Part shown: positions 38,819 to 59,330 of the stretch, piece after piece
Layout: every line of letters begins with the position of its first letter
How positions within the stretch are numbered: position 1 is the stretch's first letter
Source of the DNA: Daucus carota subsp. sativus
Taxonomy: Eukaryota; Streptophyta; Magnoliopsida; Apiales; Apiaceae
Assembly (NCBI RefSeq): GCF_001625215.2
Contig: NC_030386.2
Coordinates: forward strand, 36,521,296-36,585,295
Length of the DNA stretch: 64,000 nt
Direction of reading: 5' to 3'
Notes under the pieces: model-generated
The model's input: only the letters and a program-made list of their open reading frames with translations
Told to the model about the DNA's origin: nothing
Databases searched by the model: none
Position numbers and translations under genes: made by a program

Positions 38819-40200
38819 GTAGCAATTGCATTAATCAACAACAGCATTAATGAAATGGACCTTGAGTATTCAATTTAGGGTCGTTTTAGTATATTTGTTT
38901 GTGAACACACGATAATAATTAGTAATTTTTATTTGATGAAGATTTTTGTATAAAAACGGGTCCGTCATTATTAACTAATCAGAGATATAATAAGAATCTA
39001 TCACCCAATTAAAAATGGTTGATTATTTGTGTTCATGGACACACACTTAAAAAATCATTCAATTTATTTTTTGAAATTAGGAAATTTAAGTTGCAAAACA
39101 CTGAAATCGAATAATGTGAATTATGATGATTTTGTGCTTTAATTTACCAGTCGGTTGCTGTACTTATGTTTCTTGGTCCTGAAGTATTGAAATTAATCTT
39201 CTCGATTGAATGCCATGAACAAAATGAAATTTCTTCTCTTCTTGCAATCGAACTTTATTCTCCTTGTTCTCACCCTTATCACAAAATCAGCTGCATGTAA
39301 AAGAAGTATGACAAACTGTTATCCCATAACTTGATATATTTAGGCCACGTTTCGGCGTGACTACTTGTAATTGTTTAGACATCTTGATCCGTTACGGAGG
39401 ATGTTTGATTTTTTACCTATATTTTTAGAAGGTTTGATCATATATTTAAAATTGATTTTTTTTAAAATTTTTTTTTCTAAAAATATTTATGTTATATTTT
39501 ATTTAGAAAAAAATACAAAAATATTAATATTTTTATATGATCAAAACATCTAAAATTACGTGTAAAAAGTCAAACGGCTTATAAAATGGATTAGAGGGAA
39601 TATATTTTTAGCGTGTAGCTGATTCTGTATTCAGTTTCTTATTCAATATAGTAAAAACAATATTCATAATTCAAATTCGAAGTGCAACCGTATATCCTAG
39701 CCAGCTACAAGTCTACAACGTCTAAATCGCAAATATAATTCTAAGAGAAACGTTTAATTTTCTCAATTCTTCTTGCTGATAGTTTTTTATCATGAAAGTT
39801 GATTGTACATACCAATGCTGCAGAAGAGAGATTGTCTTCTTTATATTGTTTAACTCTGTGCACCTTCCTTGAGCTCCTTTATTCATATAACAACCACTTA
39901 TTCGAAGAAATATATATAGACACACACTAGAGGAGCGATCGAGGAAGGAGGTTTGCACCTTCATTGAGCCCCTTAATTTCTGCAATTATATAAATATAAT
40001 AACCACTTACAGGAAGAAATATATATCTAAACACGCTATGGGAAAGATGGATGGAGGAGCTTTGCACGTAACCTTCGTGGGTTTCTTCGTGCAAAGACAA
40101 CCTATATTAGAATTATATATAGCCGTCAACTCGTCTAGTTGCAGTACGTCAATTGACCTCGTGCATGCATAGTTGCATACTAGACTGAGACTCCATTGAT
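38819..40200. repeat. Duplicated 5' block of the lipase array (D version)
   Basis: Intron end, exon 1, leader intron and promoter of copy D align along most of their length with 48,815-49,960 (copy F version). Both hold two tandem units of about 110 bp carrying GAAGAAATATATAT and GGAGG..TTTGCAC. The D version has an extra insertion at about 39,386-39,610 absent from F. Confidence 0.8.
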
Positions 40201-49172: not shown

Positions 49173-50031
49173 GAAAGTACAAAATGAAATTTCTTCTCTT
49201 CTTGTAATCGAACTTTATTCTCCTTGTTCTCACCTTAGATCACAAAATCAGCTGCATGTAAAAGAAGTAGACAAACAGTTATCCCATAACTTGATATATT
49301 TAGGCCACGTTTTGGCGTGACTACTTCGCTTAGACATCACCAATTCACGAGTTCTTATTCAGTATAGTAAAAATAATATTTATAATTCAAATTCGAAGTG
49401 CAACAGTATATCCTAGCTAGCTGTAACGTCTAAATGGCAAATATAATTTTAAGAAAAACGTTTAAATTTCTCACTTCTTGCTGATGGTTTTTTATCATGA
49501 AAGTTGATTGTACGTACCGATATATACTGCAGAAGAGAGAATATTGATGTCTTACTTATATTGTTTAACTCTTTGCACCTTATTCCTTGAGCTCCTTTAT
49601 TCATATAACAACCACTTATTCGAAGAAATATATATAGAGACACACTAGAGGAGGGATCGAGGAAGGAGGTTTGCACCTTCACTGAGGCCCTTAATTTCTG
49701 CAATTATATAAATATAATAACAACTTACGGGAAGAAATATATAACTAAACACGCTATGGGAGAGATGGATGGAGGAGGTTTGCACGTAACTTTTCTTGGG
49801 TTTCTTCATGCATGAACTAATTCAACCTATAAGAAGAAATATATATTAGAATTATATAATATGCATGACGGTCTAGTTGCAGTACGTCTATTACCTCGTG
49901 TATGCATACTAGACTGGGACTCCATTGATTATTGGTCGAACCAAAGTCGTCGTCGCTTACGCATAGTAATACTAATCATCTAGAGTTCTGCTTGTCGTCA
50001 CCGGAATGCAGACTTGTTCCCGTGTTGGAGC
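49173..50031. repeat. Duplicated 5' block of the lipase array (F version)
   Basis: Leader intron (acceptor CATGCAG near 49,250; donor GTACGTAC near 49,518) and promoter of copy F, aligned to 39,217-40,200 upstream of D and in part to 53,130-53,960 plus 59,331-59,470 upstream of G. It carries an empty site for the Helitron at 49717/49718. Confidence 0.75.
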
Positions 50032-51883: not shown

Positions 51884-53124
51884 TCATGGCTGGTACTCGG
51901 GCTGGCAACTAAAACACAGTGTCCACCACTGAGCAACTCCATGAGCTTCCCTCAAGTTTTGGCTCCCACTCTTATTGATCACCAGATTAGCTGTTGGAAG
52001 CAGATGAAATGGTTCCGCAGTACGGCTACCCAATGCATACTTAGCTAAACTCCTGGTTGAAACTTTGGTCGCAGCCTTGGCAATTCTAGCACCACGAGGT
52101 CCCCAACGCGCCATTCTGTACCTGTTCTTAAAGTAGCCAATGTACTCGGAACAAATTGGATCATCTTCATTCACACATAAGTATGGATCCCAACTGGATA
52201 ACTGCGTGAACTTATTTTCTACTTGAGTCCTCTGTTCATCGTCCATCACGACCTTTGATAGTCCAGCCTTGGCTACAGTCTACAGACCATGCAATTCTTA
52301 TCCCACTCCTTACTCTACGGCTCTTGATGTGCTCTAGTGGTAGTGAAACAAACGGTGGGTTAAAAAGGTAAGTTTTTAGGGGAATTCCTATTTTTGCCAT
52401 GTCTCGTCCCACTGTGAGTGCAATAGCTGACCCCAGAGAATGGCCTGCTAGCCATACAGTATCCGCGCCACCATTAGCATCCACTAAGATTTCCACAACT
52501 TTTGATGTTACCTCAGATCGGAAGCTTTTTGTAAGTTTCTCCTTGAGTAAAATTTTGAGATTTAGTCTGAAATCTTTAAACGCTGTCGCTGATTTGATTA
52601 CTGTGCCTCGTAATGCAACCACACACCGGGGAGGGTGCCCTTCCCCAAATGTGTCTGTTGGAAGTTTAAACTTGTAGATAGCTCCATATATTGATGAATC
52701 AGATTTGTCGATTAGATCTGTGAGAAGTTGGAAATTGAAAGATTCCCACCATGGAGGTGCTAAAGCTTGGAGGCCTGTTCGACCCTCCCTACGATCTCGT
52801 TCCATAGCGTAGACGCCTTGTACTAAGCTAGCAGCAATTGTTATTCGGTGATGGATGTTACTCCTTAAAAAAATATAGTACATGAAATCTTATATTAGTA
52901 CTGATAGCACAGATCAACAACATTATAGAGTATATATTAATGAAATAGACCTAGCTAATTGAGTGTTCAATTTTGTAATTTGAAATTATGAAATCTAGAG
53001 TTGCAAAACACTGAAATCGAATAACGTGAATTAATGATTTTGCGCTTCTAATTTACCGGTCGGTTAATGCTGTACTTATGTTTCTTGGTCCTGAACTATT
53101 AAAATCTTCTGGATCGAAAGCCAT
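51884..53124 (-). pseudogene. Lipase array copy G, frameshifted sister of F
   Basis: Exon 1 (53124-53057) encodes MAFDPEDFNSSGPRN and ends CG|G, an Arg codon where other copies have Trp. Exon 2 homology (52863-51884) keeps WLAGHSLGSAIALTVGRD, but a 7-bp insertion near 52,280 (TCTACAG next to an existing CTACAG, absent from F) shifts the frame after RSGIRIAWSV. The downstream part, in the other frame, still matches F closely, including the His region. An ATG at 52883 in the intron is in frame with exon 2. Two defects and very high similarity to F mean it died recently. A Helitron sits in its promoter. Confidence 0.85.
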
Positions 53125-53966
53125 GAACAAAAATAGAATTTCTTCTCTTCTTTTAGTCCAACTTTCTTCTCCTTGTTCTCCTCAATCACAAAATAAGCTG
53201 CATGTAAAAGTAGACAAACATGTTATTCCCATAATTTGATATATGAAGGCCATGTTTTGACAACTTATAAGTCGTTTTGACATAGAGCTGTTTGTGCTAA
53301 GTTTCTTCAATTCACCACATATTTCTCCCTCTCCTAGCTTGTACGTATGGCTGGCCGCATAAATAATAAAGTTTTTAGAATCGAAGGAGACGACGACTAA
53401 CATTAATTACAATAAGTCTATGAAGGACAAGGAGTTAATCTAATTTGAATCACGTGGCATGATTGTTCAAGCGATGCCATCAAGAGCCTGTATATACGAA
53501 CCGTGTAACTGATTCAGTACTCAGCCTCCTGCAGGAGCGAGACTAGTGTCCTGAAAGAGATTTACAATAGCAAAAATAATAGGAAAATGTTTGGTGTACA
53601 CAAAATTTTGTACATAATGACATGTGATGGGTTTTAATTAGTATGAGCCTTTTGTATTTACATCAATAACCTCAATTTCAACATTTCACATCAATTATCA
53701 TTTTATTATGTACAAATTTCTTGTACGTACACCTAACACTATTCAAAACAATATACAAATTTCAAATTCAAAGTGCAACCCCATATATCCTCCTAGCTAT
53801 AATATTGTTTAAATGGCAAATGGAATTCTAAGAAAAACGTTTAGTTTTCTCATTTCTTACCGATCTTTTTCTCATGTAAATTGATTGTGTGAGAGAGATT
53901 GTCTTACCTCTACTTCAATTGTTTGCACCTTCCTTGACCTCTTTAATTTCTGCAATCATAAAATAA
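53125..53966. other. Leader and promoter of copy G up to the Helitron
   Basis: Aligns in parts to the 5' blocks of D and F, including the leader-intron acceptor (CATGCAG near 53,203) and the phrase TTTAATTTCTGCAAT just before the Helitron. It is interrupted by a small inverted-end element at about 53,588-53,740. Confidence 0.6.
53588..53740. mobile_element. Probable MITE with GTTTGGTGTAC ends
   Basis: About 37-bp inverted ends (TGTTTGGTGTACAC at left, complement of TGTTAGGTGTACGTAC at right) around an AT-rich core. No clear target duplication was found. It is absent from copies D and F at the matching place. Confidence 0.5.
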
Positions 53967-54838
53967 TCTTATATTTATATAAAGGAGGTTCTTCACATGC
54001 TTACGTGGCGTCTCCCATATGCCGTGTTCTATTCTTTCTCAATTTCTAGAATTTCACTATTTTTTTTTTAGAGATCTCGACGGTTACTCCTTCAGCTAGG
54101 CATCTGTAAAGACCTAAACTGATAATTTAAATGCAAAGTTCACATTTCGAAGCCGGCGATCAACAAAACTCTTGCCAATGACATCCATCAAGTTGCTCAT
54201 CAGATCACCACTCTCACCCTACTTCAACCCTCCCACATTTCAAATCTTTTATAAAATCCTGGGCAACCCAAATTTTTTTTTTTGGATTTTTTGACATCTT
54301 CAACTGTAATTGATGATCAGTCGGAGCAATAAAGGAGCAAGTCATGGGGCACCATGTGTCTCCGGCCAATCGGTGTCGACTAGCGGCAGCGTGGGCTCTC
54401 CTACAACCGGGAGTGAGGCGATTGGCAACACTCCCCCAGTGATAAGACTTCTTTTACAGTTGATCATGTAGATGCTCATGCTGGTGATGTTGCATCTCAA
54501 GCTACTTATATGTGAGTGCTTAATTTGCTGTGTTTTTTGAGGATTTTATTGCAGGGAATCGAGTGTGATTGATTTGCTTTTACAATTGAGACCGGATTCT
54601 ATGGTGATTTGATTATATATTTTGATTTTGGAGCAATTTTGTGATCATTGGATGGTAATTATTGAATTTAGAAAAGTGATTTTTTTTTCTGTGTTTGTTT
54701 TTGTGTTTGGACTAATTACTACCGTCTGAGCATGAATTCTGCTAACTGTGTGTATTAAGTGTTTTACTATATTCTTAGTTTTGTTGTGATGAGACAGTGA
54801 AAAAAAAGGGGTCAACAAGCAGTCAGAGGGGATAAGAA
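53967..54838 (+). repeat. Helitron 5' segment, first tandem unit
   Basis: 872-bp direct repeat of 54839-55710. I see no difference between the units, including the T10 homopolymer. It starts at the Helitron TC terminus and stops inside the second captured DP exon. Confidence 0.92.
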
Positions 54839-55742
54839 TCTTATATTTATATAAAGGAGGTTCTTCACATGCTTACGTGGCGTCTCCCATATGCCGTGTT
54901 CTATTCTTTCTCAATTTCTAGAATTTCACTATTTTTTTTTTAGAGATCTCGACGGTTACTCCTTCAGCTAGGCATCTGTAAAGACCTAAACTGATAATTT
55001 AAATGCAAAGTTCACATTTCGAAGCCGGCGATCAACAAAACTCTTGCCAATGACATCCATCAAGTTGCTCATCAGATCACCACTCTCACCCTACTTCAAC
55101 CCTCCCACATTTCAAATCTTTTATAAAATCCTGGGCAACCCAAATTTTTTTTTTTGGATTTTTTGACATCTTCAACTGTAATTGATGATCAGTCGGAGCA
55201 ATAAAGGAGCAAGTCATGGGGCACCATGTGTCTCCGGCCAATCGGTGTCGACTAGCGGCAGCGTGGGCTCTCCTACAACCGGGAGTGAGGCGATTGGCAA
55301 CACTCCCCCAGTGATAAGACTTCTTTTACAGTTGATCATGTAGATGCTCATGCTGGTGATGTTGCATCTCAAGCTACTTATATGTGAGTGCTTAATTTGC
55401 TGTGTTTTTTGAGGATTTTATTGCAGGGAATCGAGTGTGATTGATTTGCTTTTACAATTGAGACCGGATTCTATGGTGATTTGATTATATATTTTGATTT
55501 TGGAGCAATTTTGTGATCATTGGATGGTAATTATTGAATTTAGAAAAGTGATTTTTTTTTCTGTGTTTGTTTTTGTGTTTGGACTAATTACTACCGTCTG
55601 AGCATGAATTCTGCTAACTGTGTGTATTAAGTGTTTTACTATATTCTTAGTTTTGTTGTGATGAGACAGTGAAAAAAAAGGGGTCAACAAGCAGTCAGAG
55701 GGGATAAGAATTGCAGGGGACTCCGCCAATCTAACATGAAAG
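54334..55742 (+). pseudogene. Captured fragment of a DP (E2F partner) transcription factor gene
   Basis: Two exon-like pieces match plant DPB-type proteins. The first encodes VSGQSVSTSGSVGSP followed, after a one-base frame change, by DKTSFTVDHVDAHAGDVASQ. It is present twice, at 54334-54511 and 55206-55383, and each copy is followed by a GTGAGT donor. The second, 55670-55742, encodes KKRGQQAVRGDKNCRGLRQ, the start of the DP DNA-binding region, ending at a GT donor. Only the beginning of this second exon is in the first unit (54798-54838). In whole genes DP dimerises with E2F in cell-cycle control. Here only the N-terminal part exists and it is out of frame, so no DP protein can be made. Confidence 0.75.
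54839..55710 (+). repeat. Helitron 5' segment, second tandem unit
   Basis: Begins again with the Helitron 5' terminus TCTTATATTT directly after GGGATAAGAA of the first unit. It continues beyond 55,710 into the unique remainder of the DP fragment. Two bases (AA) of microhomology precede TC at both unit starts. Confidence 0.92.
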
Positions 55743-56421
55743 GTTTGTGCCTTTGTCATTCTATGTTGTTGCGATAGTAATCTTCTGCGCATGCTGTTGA
55801 TATATAGTTGATGTTTAACCAAGAGTGCTTGTACTGATCAATGGGTGCATAGTGAAGTGGTCTATGTCATAACAATGTTATATTTTGGGCTCTATAGTTC
55901 AAGTTGCCTATTACAAAAATTGTTAAGTCTCTGCTCAAAAATGAAATCTGATTATATTGTCATGTGATTATGGTTCTTTAGCTAAAATGGTTGGTTGTTT
56001 GGCGTCCACTGGCATCCATTCCTCCGATCCTGTCAGTGCCAATTTTTCCAAGGTCAAACCCTTATTCTTTTTTACTGATTGTTTTGGTCAATTTTGTTTA
56101 TTATTTTTAGGGTTTTGATTATTTTTTGTGTGTGCTTTGTAATTTGATTTGGGTTGTGTGAAAATTAGCTTTCTTGATCTTGATACTTGAGGGTTTTGTT
56201 TAATATGATCAAATTGATTAAAGTGCTTTGTGATAGGTTGAACTTTTGGCCGTTAGGAGATTAGGAATTTGATATAGTTTTTGTTAACTTTCGTGTATTG
56301 ATTTGATTGTTAGGAGCTCTCAGCGAATTAGGTAATTTCAAATTAATAACAAGATTCAATCTGACACTCTAATTTAATATAATAAATTAACTAATTAGAT
56401 AAATTTGGATAAAATTAATGG

Positions 56422-57058
56422 ATGATCTCGGATAGCTTTGCTGCTGAGATAAAGTTGTCTGACAAGTTTTTTTCCCCACCAAAACCATCATTCTCGCATA
56501 TTGAAATTGTATCTTTCATTTTGCTTGGTTTCACCTTCGAATATGGTTCACAGTTTATAAATTATGCAATTTCGCGTCAAGTTCAAGACTTAAATGTGCA
56601 TATTCCAGAATTTGTTATGGATTTATCCACCTTTAGTTCTACTTCCATGAAGAAACTTAAGATGAGTCTTGATTTTTGTAAGGTGTTTAGATTCTCGGAT
56701 TGTTGGGATTTGCCTGCTTTAACAACTCTACGCTTGATACTCCCTTCATTAAGCCTTGGCGGAATAAGTATTCCTGAATTATAGTTGATCTGTTTGCCTT
56801 CTTTACAGACTCTGGTTCTCGATTGTATTGAGTTACCAAATTCTCTTGATTGCTTGCTTCAGTAACTCTCTATCTGGCAAGGTGCAAGTCCTTAATATTA
56901 GCTGTATTGGTTTATTCCCAATCACATTTAGACTATCTCAGTTAGAGTATGTGAATATGAAATTAAGGGATAGCACTGATGGAAGAAAGCCTATTCCAGG
57001 ATCTAAGTTGATGAAGATATATTATCGCGGATTTACTTATGTCTCAGGTTTAGGGTAG
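56422..57058 (+). pseudogene. Captured fragment of an F-box/LRR (FBD-like) gene
   Basis: The translation contains RQVQDLNVHIPEF, STSMKKLKMSLDFCKVF, CWDLPALTTLRL and, further on, LPSLQTLVLDCIELPNS, the leucine-rich pattern of plant F-box/FBD/LRR proteins. It has in-frame stops: TAG at 56782, in the place where a Trp codon would be expected, and TAA near 56,863. Weaker homology-like sequence continues to 57,058 in another frame. No F-box or FBD domain is present. A possible earlier exon (MVGCLASTGIHSSDP near 55,987) is uncertain. Confidence 0.65.
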
Positions 57059-57813
57059 TGCAAAGATTCTTACTCTCGACTTGGAGACTATTGAGGTATG
57101 AGGTATAGTTCTGCTTGATTCTTTTCTGCTATAGTAATTAAGATATTACAACTTTATTATCTTTTCTTCAATTGAAGATAATTTTATTAAAATTGATTGT
57201 CATGCCTACTGCTTTTTGTCAATCATTGGTCATTCATTGGAGAATGTTATTATTGATTGATAATAGTTCAAACTTTTGGATGACAATGCTATAATTTGAT
57301 CAATTTTGTTTAGTTATTTCCTAGGCTTTATCTTCTATTTCAGATTCTCTCGTAAATTCTCCTCCTCATTCTATAACTTAAAGTATGTGAAGGTGCCACA
57401 AGGATGTAAAGAAACAAATTTTGTCAACTGACCTCAAATGCTACTTGCTTGGTCGCTCTCCAAAGCTACTATTGTCACTAAATTTCCTCAGGTACTAATG
57501 AATCGTATCGACTTTTGATTAATCGTTTCATTCCCTTTCTTGTTTTGTAAGCATAAGAGGATGATGTGGCATCTCTCAAGGGCCTCCATCTAAGTTTTCT
57601 ATTTTTCTAGCATCTTTGTGCTTTGGTATTTTTATTTTGATTAAAACTAATTAATTCTTTATCTTTTCAGCTTATTAATTGTTATGAATTACAGTTACAG
57701 ACTTTTTATTTTCCTCTTCACTTCACTTCTTGCTTTCCATGTGACAGTATATATAGATGTTTATGCATTGAATTGCTAATTGGTTGTGATTGACTTGATG
57801 AGTAATTTGGTTT

Positions 57814-58002
57814 GGAAAGGCATTAAGAAAGCAACTGGCTAACAAGATCGGTGTCTGTTTGTATAGTGTGATTTTGCTGTATGTTCGATATTGAACTTCT
57901 ATGATGATATGTGTCGGTTATTAGAGACAGCTAGGAAGTCTGCACCAACCACTGGAGAATGAAGATGCCCCACAGATACCGTCCTGGAACTCTTGCCCTG
58001 CG
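57814..58002 (+). pseudogene. Captured fragment of an intron-bearing histone H3 gene
   Basis: First piece 57814-57850 encodes GKALRKQLANKI (histone H3: GKAPRKQLATKA). The second, 57925-58002, encodes TARKSAPTTG and, after a one-base loss, PHRYRPGTLALR. A short intron with GT and AG ends separates them, and a GT follows the last codon. Such introns are found in replacement-type H3.3 genes, not in replicative H3 genes. The N-terminal tail and the C-terminal half are missing, so it is non-functional. Confidence 0.8.
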
Positions 58003-58556
58003 GTATATATTTGTTTATAACTTCATATGCATCCATCAAATACAGTGGAATAAACCTTTCGGAGGTTTACTTATGTTTTACACGTTTCTACCTAGACATC
58101 TATAAATATTAAAATACTGTGCCCTGTCATGTATATATGTGATATAAAGAAGAATCATCCCCGCTCGTGAATTGTGATGATTCTGTAAGTGTGGCCTCCC
58201 CCGTCGAGTTCTACGTGGCGGTATGATTTTTTAAGGAGTCAGTGGGAGCCTGGGAGGTTTTGTCGCCAATGTTGTGGCCTCGTGGGGGTTTTGCTTAAAA
58301 GAATTACACTTATTTCTGTTATTAGTATTAGTCATATCTCTTCTGAAATAATCTTAATGTAAACAAGAGGTTTTTTGTTTGAGGTGTTTTGGACATTTTT
58401 TCTTTTGTTAGATAAAAAACTGCTTATGGCTTCTGCAAACTTTGCATTTACATTTTTATTTTAGCAGAGCATCAATATTCTCTTATGAATCATGTAATTT
58501 ACACGGTGATGTATTTGAAACTATTTTATTCATTTGAAACTATTTTATTCTTCTTC

Positions 58557-58817
58557 CTAATTGAACACACACATGCCCCTTTCACCTTCGACAGGACTAC
58601 AACCCTGGCTGAAGGTAATAGTAGTGCTAAAGGATAAAGTAAAAGTACAGGATAAGTTTAGTGACAAATCATCCTGTTTCTGTTTACTGATCCGAGAGTG
58701 AGATGGATCCTGGCCTTCTGATGAAGAAAGTGAGGGCTCCTGATCTACTGTTTCATCATTAGACCCCCTCTTGCTGCAACACAAATGAACTGGGTCTTCT
58801 TCAGAAAGAAACCTCAC
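58557..58817 (-). other. Unrecognised open frame inside the Helitron
   Basis: An 86-codon minus-strand frame rich in Ser, Asp and Glu (VDQEPSLSSSEGQDPSHSR). It opposes the orientation of the other captured fragments. I do not recognise a family. It could be part of a fourth captured gene or chance. Confidence 0.3.
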
Positions 58818-59304
58818 CCCAGTATATCAGTGTTAGAAATTTTGTTATTCATCAAGTTTAACTCATTGTAAAAATCATGAAAATACAAATGAAATCTAAT
58901 ATATTTACTTTTCTGTTATTATTTCATTTGAAAACACACAATTATATTCTTTCCTTCAAGTCGGATGAGAACTTTTCTTAGAATAAATTATCAAGTTCGA
59001 GTGAATTTGATGGATATATGTTCGATGATATTTTTTACATATTTTTATATTTAATTAAAATTATTAATTATCAGTCAAAGTTGTATTATTAGTGATCACG
59101 TGACATCTCTGAGCAAATATGTAAGAATGAGACTGAATGAGACTGCAATACACATAAAGTTAGAGTTTGAGAAGAAAGTTAGAGTTTGAGAAGAAGCTAT
59201 ATTATTTTATATTTTATATTTTAACAAGAAATACAAAACAAAAGATCCATAAATTATAGATCATGAAAATCTTTTAAAATATTTTATATTCTAATTTTTT
59301 CACT

Positions 59305-59317
59305 CGCGCGGAGCGCG
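59305..59317 (+). other. Helitron 3' terminal hairpin
   Basis: CGCGC / GGA loop / GCGCG, followed by a T run and CACTAG with the element end at 59330. This is the termination signal expected of plant Helitrons. Confidence 0.88.
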
Positions 59318-59330
59318 TTTTTTTCACTAG

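Follow-up and report, generated by a model that had tools for sequence, protein, structure and literature searches.

A gene-capturing, non-autonomous Helitron of carrot with a perfectly doubled 5′ end, and a tentative rolling-circle account of the stacked 5′ ends in its family

We have analyzed a 64,000-nucleotide stretch of the genome of Daucus carota subsp. sativus (NC_030386.2; C6:36521296-36585295), referred to as the window in the following, in which an element with the termini of a plant Helitron lies on the forward strand. Its features are collected in Table 1, and all genome-wide comparisons cover the 441.09-Mb assembly (11 contigs). The element starts with TC at 53967, preceded by A, and ends with CTAG at 59330, followed by T. 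A 5-bp GC hairpin is located 13 nt from the 3′ end (z −2.39; 6 of 200 shuffles fold equally well or better), and the letters of the hairpin are present again in the 76 genome matches of the 3′ pattern. The initial annotation, which had placed the TC and CTAG termini and the A/T flanks at these very base pairs and had described a 3′ hairpin of the plant Helitron kind, is borne out on these points. The locus is a real, complete, non-autonomous gene-capturing Helitron, and as such a further case of a known sort.

Table 1. Features of the window and the 5′ stacks of related elements (positions are those of the window)
Feature	Position	Strand	Evidence or description
Paralogous empty site upstream of tandem lipase copy	39951..40025	+	joined flanks 65/75 identical, 2 single-base gaps
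Second paralogous empty site	49669..49785	+	joined flanks 88/117 identical, 11 gap positions
Whole non-autonomous Helitron as inserted, 5364 bp	53967..59330	+	TC/CTAG ends, A/T flanks, sisters, paralogous empty sites
Outer 872-bp unit, extra 5′-end copy	53967..54838	+	starts exactly at TC terminus, ends ..AGAA
Inner 872-bp unit	54839..55710	+	54839 corresponds to the 5′ terminus of the sisters, 54839-54939 to the conserved 5′ end of the family
DP (E2F dimerisation partner) gene fragment	55060..55923	+	78-89% to C6:31987452-31988510
DUF1421 (UBA-like) gene fragment	56005..56318	+	86% to C4:48799070-48799389
F-box/LRR gene fragment	56426..57550	+	85-87% to C1:32461622-32462917, 86% to C1:32469726-32470048
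5′ subterminal stretch of a second, H3-carrying Helitron type, first 29 nt gone	57556..57754	+	57556-57812 89% to L033
Histone H3 gene fragment	57755..58018	+	91-92% to C4:39428679-39428884 and just upstream
WRKY transcription factor gene fragment, antisense	58664..58792	-	88% to C5:42948676-42948805
Family 3′ end	59201..59330	+	hairpin 59305-59317 (5-bp stem, 3-nt loop), CTAG 59327-59330
L034 stack			units 124, 66, 124; corresponding units differ by 0 bases
L075 stack			units 76, 886, 886; corresponding units differ by 0-1 bases
L079 stack			units 645 and 175 alternating; corresponding units differ by 0-1 bases
L080 stack			unit 855; corresponding units differ by 8 bases
L077, without paired 3′ end			144-bp unit; 2 differences

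The cargo consists of intron-containing genomic fragments of five unrelated host genes with identifiable parent loci. The DP fragment comprises two exons and the intron between them, is frameshifted, and is partly repeated at 54188-54838 in the outer 872-bp unit; frames downstream at its parent locus match E2F_TDP (Pfam, 2.3e-11), the nearest solved chain being DP-2 (6e-17). For the DUF1421 piece, the domain (Pfam, 6.3e-23) lies in a frame downstream of the C4 match, and the first exons of the parent gave no naming Pfam match. Other genomic matches to this piece exist (e.g., C6:9621852, 85%), and the C4 locus is a candidate parent. The F-box/LRR piece matches two neighbouring paralogues near C1:32.46 Mb and corresponds to the part after the F-box motif, with 254 bp of the parent missing inside; the parent open reading frame contains an F-box (Pfam, 3.5e-6). 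The H3 fragment spans the end of exon 1, an intron and exon 2, again with a frameshift, and the next exon of the parent matches Histone (Pfam, 1.5e-24). A WRKY domain (Pfam, 1.1e-17) lies downstream in the C5 locus matched by the last piece. A WRKY-like stretch at C6:6801830 (L084, 91%) has no WRKY domain in the one frame scanned and may be a further dispersed copy instead of the parent.

For DP, DUF1421, H3 and WRKY, the named domain and the captured stretch lie in different frames of one locus, and the naming of these parents therefore rests on co-location on the same strand. Compared with the parents, frameshifts are present in the DP and H3 fragments, and the F-box piece hits a stop where its parent reads on, so that, judged from the sequence, a chimeric protein is unlikely to be made from the element. 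The initial annotation had listed DP, F-box/LRR and histone H3 pieces, all in one orientation and with introns kept. These three are indeed present, but DUF1421 and WRKY raise the count to five, and the antisense WRKY piece contradicts the common orientation. Intron retention holds for DP and H3, with one intron kept in each, and the F-box/LRR piece does not include the F-box motif itself.

Two near-complete sisters were found by BLAST in the same genome, at C7:26255378-26259870 (97%) and C6:4965882-4970008 (95-99%). Both end at the same 3′ base as the window element and have the body in common with it, with unrelated flanks and a single 5′ unit in each. In the C6 sister, 374 bp are missing from the DP stretch and the 5′ tip contains a few additional AT bases, but the TC (at L032 position 994) and the preceding A are kept. 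The window element differs from the C6 sister at 43 of 4109 aligned sites and from the C7 sister at 75 of 4464, and carries bases of its own at 18 of the 4089 sites aligned among all three. The C7 sister is located some 223 bp upstream of a family Helitron of the DP + DUF1421 type in the same orientation (L031 5494-5716, C7:26259871-26260093), which fits the reported habit of maize Helitrons of inserting close together.

The shared ends define a larger family. With up to 3 mismatches allowed, the 3′ pattern matches the genome at 76 places; the 5′ pattern, with at most 2 mismatches, does so at 77. Reversed-pattern controls for the 3′ and 5′ ends gave 0 genome matches each. The 5′ end of the window element is one base shorter than the 5′ pattern and so stands outside the 77, although it is among the 44 matches found by BLAST. 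The pairing of ends was made with 95 5′ ends, namely the 77 pattern matches and 18 hand-picked from the 44 BLAST matches, that of the window being among the 18. A 5′ end lies within 10 kb on the same strand for 43 of the 76 3′ ends, and on the opposite strand for 2. More than one 5′ end precedes the 3′ end in 7 of the 43 paired elements; in the pairing of the 76 3′ ends with the 95 5′ ends, no 5′ end was seen to precede two or more 3′ ends. The latter count leans low, since inner 3′ ends that have decayed, as in L034, escape the 3′ pattern. The search for other copies with these termini, proposed in the initial annotation, has thus turned up two sisters and 43 paired 3′ ends, and the possibility that no other copy exists fails.

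Decayed inner 3′ ends are located about 140 bp before the outer 3′ end in L034 (4049-4104), L078 (166-221) and L042 (968-1017); they keep the hairpin region and have lost CTAG, like the pseudo 3′ termini of maize helA elements. Two inverted 5′ ends of the family, C7:33345267 (+) and C7:33345377 (-), are 110 bp apart.

When the two flanks of the element are joined, they can be aligned, through the junction, with the upstream regions of two tandem lipase paralogues within the window. These two sites, which are paralogues rather than haplotypes, agree with the element breakpoints, and no target site duplication is seen at either of them. One alignment gap adjoins the junction, where the paralogues read A/A as aligned, and the A/T target therefore rests on the flanks of the window element itself. 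The surroundings are those of a tandem cluster of class-3 lipase-like genes (28000-53300, with copies near 31.8, 36.2, 42.5, 47.8 and 51.9 kb); the nearest of the lipase reading frames scanned is about 1.1 kb from the insertion, which lies upstream of it, and a lipase-like frame at 52239-52889 on the minus strand matches Lipase_3 (E 3.4e-5). In the 5′ flank, 53581-53744 is a short repeat with at least 39 other genomic places at 74-83%, probably a miniature inverted-repeat transposable element.

Related elements carry subsets of the cargo. DP and DUF1421 matches are found in L034, L035 and the second element in L031, in which F-box, H3 and WRKY gave no match at E 1e-3. The C3 element (L025/L086) has just the final 132 bases of the F-box piece and shares its right border, and L047, L072 and L075 have DUF1421-like pieces (74-82%) without DP in the sequence examined, which for L047 and L075 was a part of the element. 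Such subsets support stepwise capture. The locus L033 (C8:31130844-31132525) is an H3-only Helitron with its own intact 5′ end, and the L033-like stretch of the window, which follows immediately on the F-box piece, is without the first 29 nt of that end. The window element accordingly looks like a fusion of two Helitron types. DUF1421 and DP would have been gained in one Helitron lineage and H3 in a separate one with its own 5′ end; the two may then have been united on either side of the F-box piece, with loss of the 29-nt 5′ tip of the second, and one 5′ end and one 3′ end would now bound the chimera.

The stepwise genomic capture put forward in the initial annotation is hence well supported by the sisters, the common termini, the empty site and the relatives with cargo subsets, and we hold with high confidence that the locus is a non-autonomous Helitron that arose in this manner. 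It is also very probable that it belongs to the gene-capturing plant Helitrons; a Rep/helicase from another locus presumably moves it in trans. Some observations weigh against this picture. The subset loci may have arisen by deletion, and a direction is given by the H3 type alone, through the 5′ tip of its own. No Rep-bearing element with these ends was found when the 150 listed Rep matches were set against the compared ends. The genome contains 168 matches to Helitron_like_N (PF14214); among the 150 listed, none lies on the same strand within 25 kb of any end compared (all 76 3′ ends and 60 of the 77 5′ ends), and one lies within that distance on the opposite strand. A 5′-like match at C3:37540682, 9 kb before an open Rep frame, was rejected as partner: it is without the first 28 nt of the 5′ end, and no family 3′ end was present at E 1e-3 in the 8 kb around and after Rep. 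On C4 (20251662-20252153, minus strand), Helitron_like_N lies inside a 1501-aa open frame, a candidate intact Rep/helicase gene. The capture history is unusually complete for one genome, with five parents, sisters, partial relatives and an empty site.

A feature that the initial annotation had missed is the perfect tandem duplication of the 5′ end, the outer and inner units differing at 0 of 872 positions. The inner unit continues with T after ..AGAA, and the window junction, ..AGAA/TT, is thus an A/T site. In the same stretch the sisters differ from the inner copy at 10 of 870 and 7 of 505 sites. Based on the 18 window-only bases among 4089 sites, about 8 differences between the units would be expected for a duplication as old as the window branch; as none is seen, the duplication is younger than this branch, or was homogenised.

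Stacks of the same unit occur in 5 of the 43 paired elements (window, L034, L075, L079 and L080), and in each the units begin exactly at TC. The array at L079 150-2435, with six 5′ ends, has the look of a double stack that was later enlarged by unequal exchange. Another 5′ end, located 1168 bp inside L075, was discarded as part of the L075 stack, the sequence that follows being unrelated (38 of 92 mismatches). L081 and L087 were likewise left out of the junction comparison, since the alignment gives only 60 nt and about 510 nt shared, respectively; L081 resembles one element inside another. The comparison includes L077 and omits the 645-bp unit of L079, for which no native continuation can be read because the innermost copy diverges after position 449. 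In all 8 junction types with a readable native continuation, A precedes the join, while the native next base is T in 5, A in 2 and G in 1.

These observations suggest, tentatively, that the 5′ stacks arise by premature re-ligation during rolling-circle synthesis, a reading in which we had slightly more confidence before a less biased comparison set was used. An HUH-type Rep is reported to hold the 5′ end covalently and to free a 3′-OH, and for Helraiser, leading-strand synthesis at the donor site after 5′ cleavage has been proposed (PMC5876387). In the present case, Rep would nick the 5′ end at A^TC, 872 nt would be recopied by leading-strand synthesis starting at the flank, and Rep, rather than completing the cycle, would link the TC end bound to it with the nascent ..AA end; the product would be flank-(TC..AA)-(TC..CTAG)-flank. 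Joining of the held TC end to the nascent strand, after any A, would yield the observed structure, in which only 5′ ends multiply. The same-unit stacks in 5 elements, the small differences between corresponding units (0-8 bases), the A before the join in 8 of 8 types, the T after it in only 5, the start of the units at TC and the lack of multiple 3′ ends all speak for such re-ligation.

The comparison of junction bases points in the same direction, although it was conceived post hoc, after the data had been seen. T flanks 76 of 76 3′ pattern ends versus 5 of 8 junctions (Fisher p 5.9e-4), but T was itself a scored position of that pattern. With the 16 3′ ends found by BLAST, where T was unscored, the flank is T in 16 of 16 versus 5 of 8 (p 0.028); since three of these ends share one flank, the 16 are not all independent, and counting the flank once (14 versus 8) gives p 0.036. 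Further points count against re-ligation. T follows A at about one-third of positions anyway, and 5 of 8 is compatible with some A/T preference; two of the seven elements with multiple 5′ ends, L081 and L087, are not clean same-unit stacks; and the window junction, being A/T itself, fits ordinary self-insertion too and cannot decide between the models.

Self-insertion, in which a copy enters an A/T site inside another copy and the composite later transposes as the segment bounded by the outer 5′ end and the first 3′ end, is accordingly a near equal of re-ligation for the window copy, and across the stacks we regard it as a possibility to be entertained only a shade less readily. The model is in print for Fusarium (PMC5148889), and a related nested-element origin has been reported for maize (PMC3288121). 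The window junction and four other junction types of the 8 have the A/T required by it, and L081 looks like an element within an element. The remaining 3 of 8 junction types are nevertheless A/A or A/G, and the window units are identical (0/872) while the sisters differ from the inner copy at the sites given above. Moreover, no un-collapsed nested precursor was seen, nor, in the pairing set, a 5′ end followed by two intact 3′ ends.

An ordinary tandem duplication or an error of assembly is an unlikely source of the 872-bp doubling. The perfect identity of the units would be compatible with either, the assembly is the sole evidence for the doubling, and arrays such as L079 do look expanded by unequal exchange. 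However, in the window and in four other elements the units start exactly at the transposon terminus, without host flank, and ordinary duplication is disfavoured because random duplications would ignore this border. For a mosaic of pseudogene fragments assembled by chance, with no Helitron involved, one could cite the decay of the fragments and the shortness of the hairpin; this reading has a negligible probability, being ruled out by borders common to several copies, in line with the genome-wide abundance of the termini and the empty sites.

Returning to re-ligation, the stacks could be, with the same reservation as above, footprints of aborted rolling-circle replication, the length of a perfect unit recording the progress of the fork and the join occurring after any A. 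If this is true, genomes bearing Helitrons hold a natural record of replication intermediates. The 5′ stacks permit a concrete test of the models, as self-insertion demands A/T at every junction and re-ligation only A, and they merit a wider survey.

It is useful to compare the carrot family with known systems, as far as these are described in the portions of the literature cited here. A curated carrot Helitron set exists (PMC10581907); in our literature search, which did not extend to that set, we found no printed account of the present element. Nor did we find a junction-base test for Helitrons with multiple 5′ ends in the literature searched, which was covered partly at the level of listings and passages, and for Xiong et al. 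2016 through citations. The Helraiser/Helibat elements (PMC4778049, PMC5876387) have the same 5′ TC and CTAG-3′ ends and a 3′ hairpin, which acts as terminator, flanking DNA being captured by read-through; unlike the carrot family, for which no partner was found, they are autonomous and of animal origin. At centromeres, rolling-circle amplification has given rise to Helitron arrays (Xiong et al. 2016, as cited in PMC5148889, PMC6591975 and PMC10095026) that also consist of tandem truncated Helitron pieces, but the carrot stacks are short and located at the 5′ end of single dispersed elements. The FoHeli elements of Fusarium share several 5′ ends with a single 3′ end, with repeats of 31, 65, 73 and 85 nt explained by self-insertion (PMC5148889); the carrot units reach 872-886 bp, and their junction bases have been tested against that explanation. 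There is also a likeness to the non-autonomous maize helAs, which capture stepwise, 82.1% of them carrying 1-5 gene fragments and 17.6% multiple 5′ termini (PMC3288121). The TC/CTAG ends, the hairpin, the A/T insertion, the relatives with cargo subsets and the multiple 5′ termini are all common to the two, whereas the plant, the termini and the cargo are different, and in carrot the additional 5′ ends adjoin one another in tandem, with junctions that in some cases are other than A/T. Gene capture and multiple 5′ termini being known phenomena in maize, the carrot element is mostly an ordinary, though unusually well documented, example.

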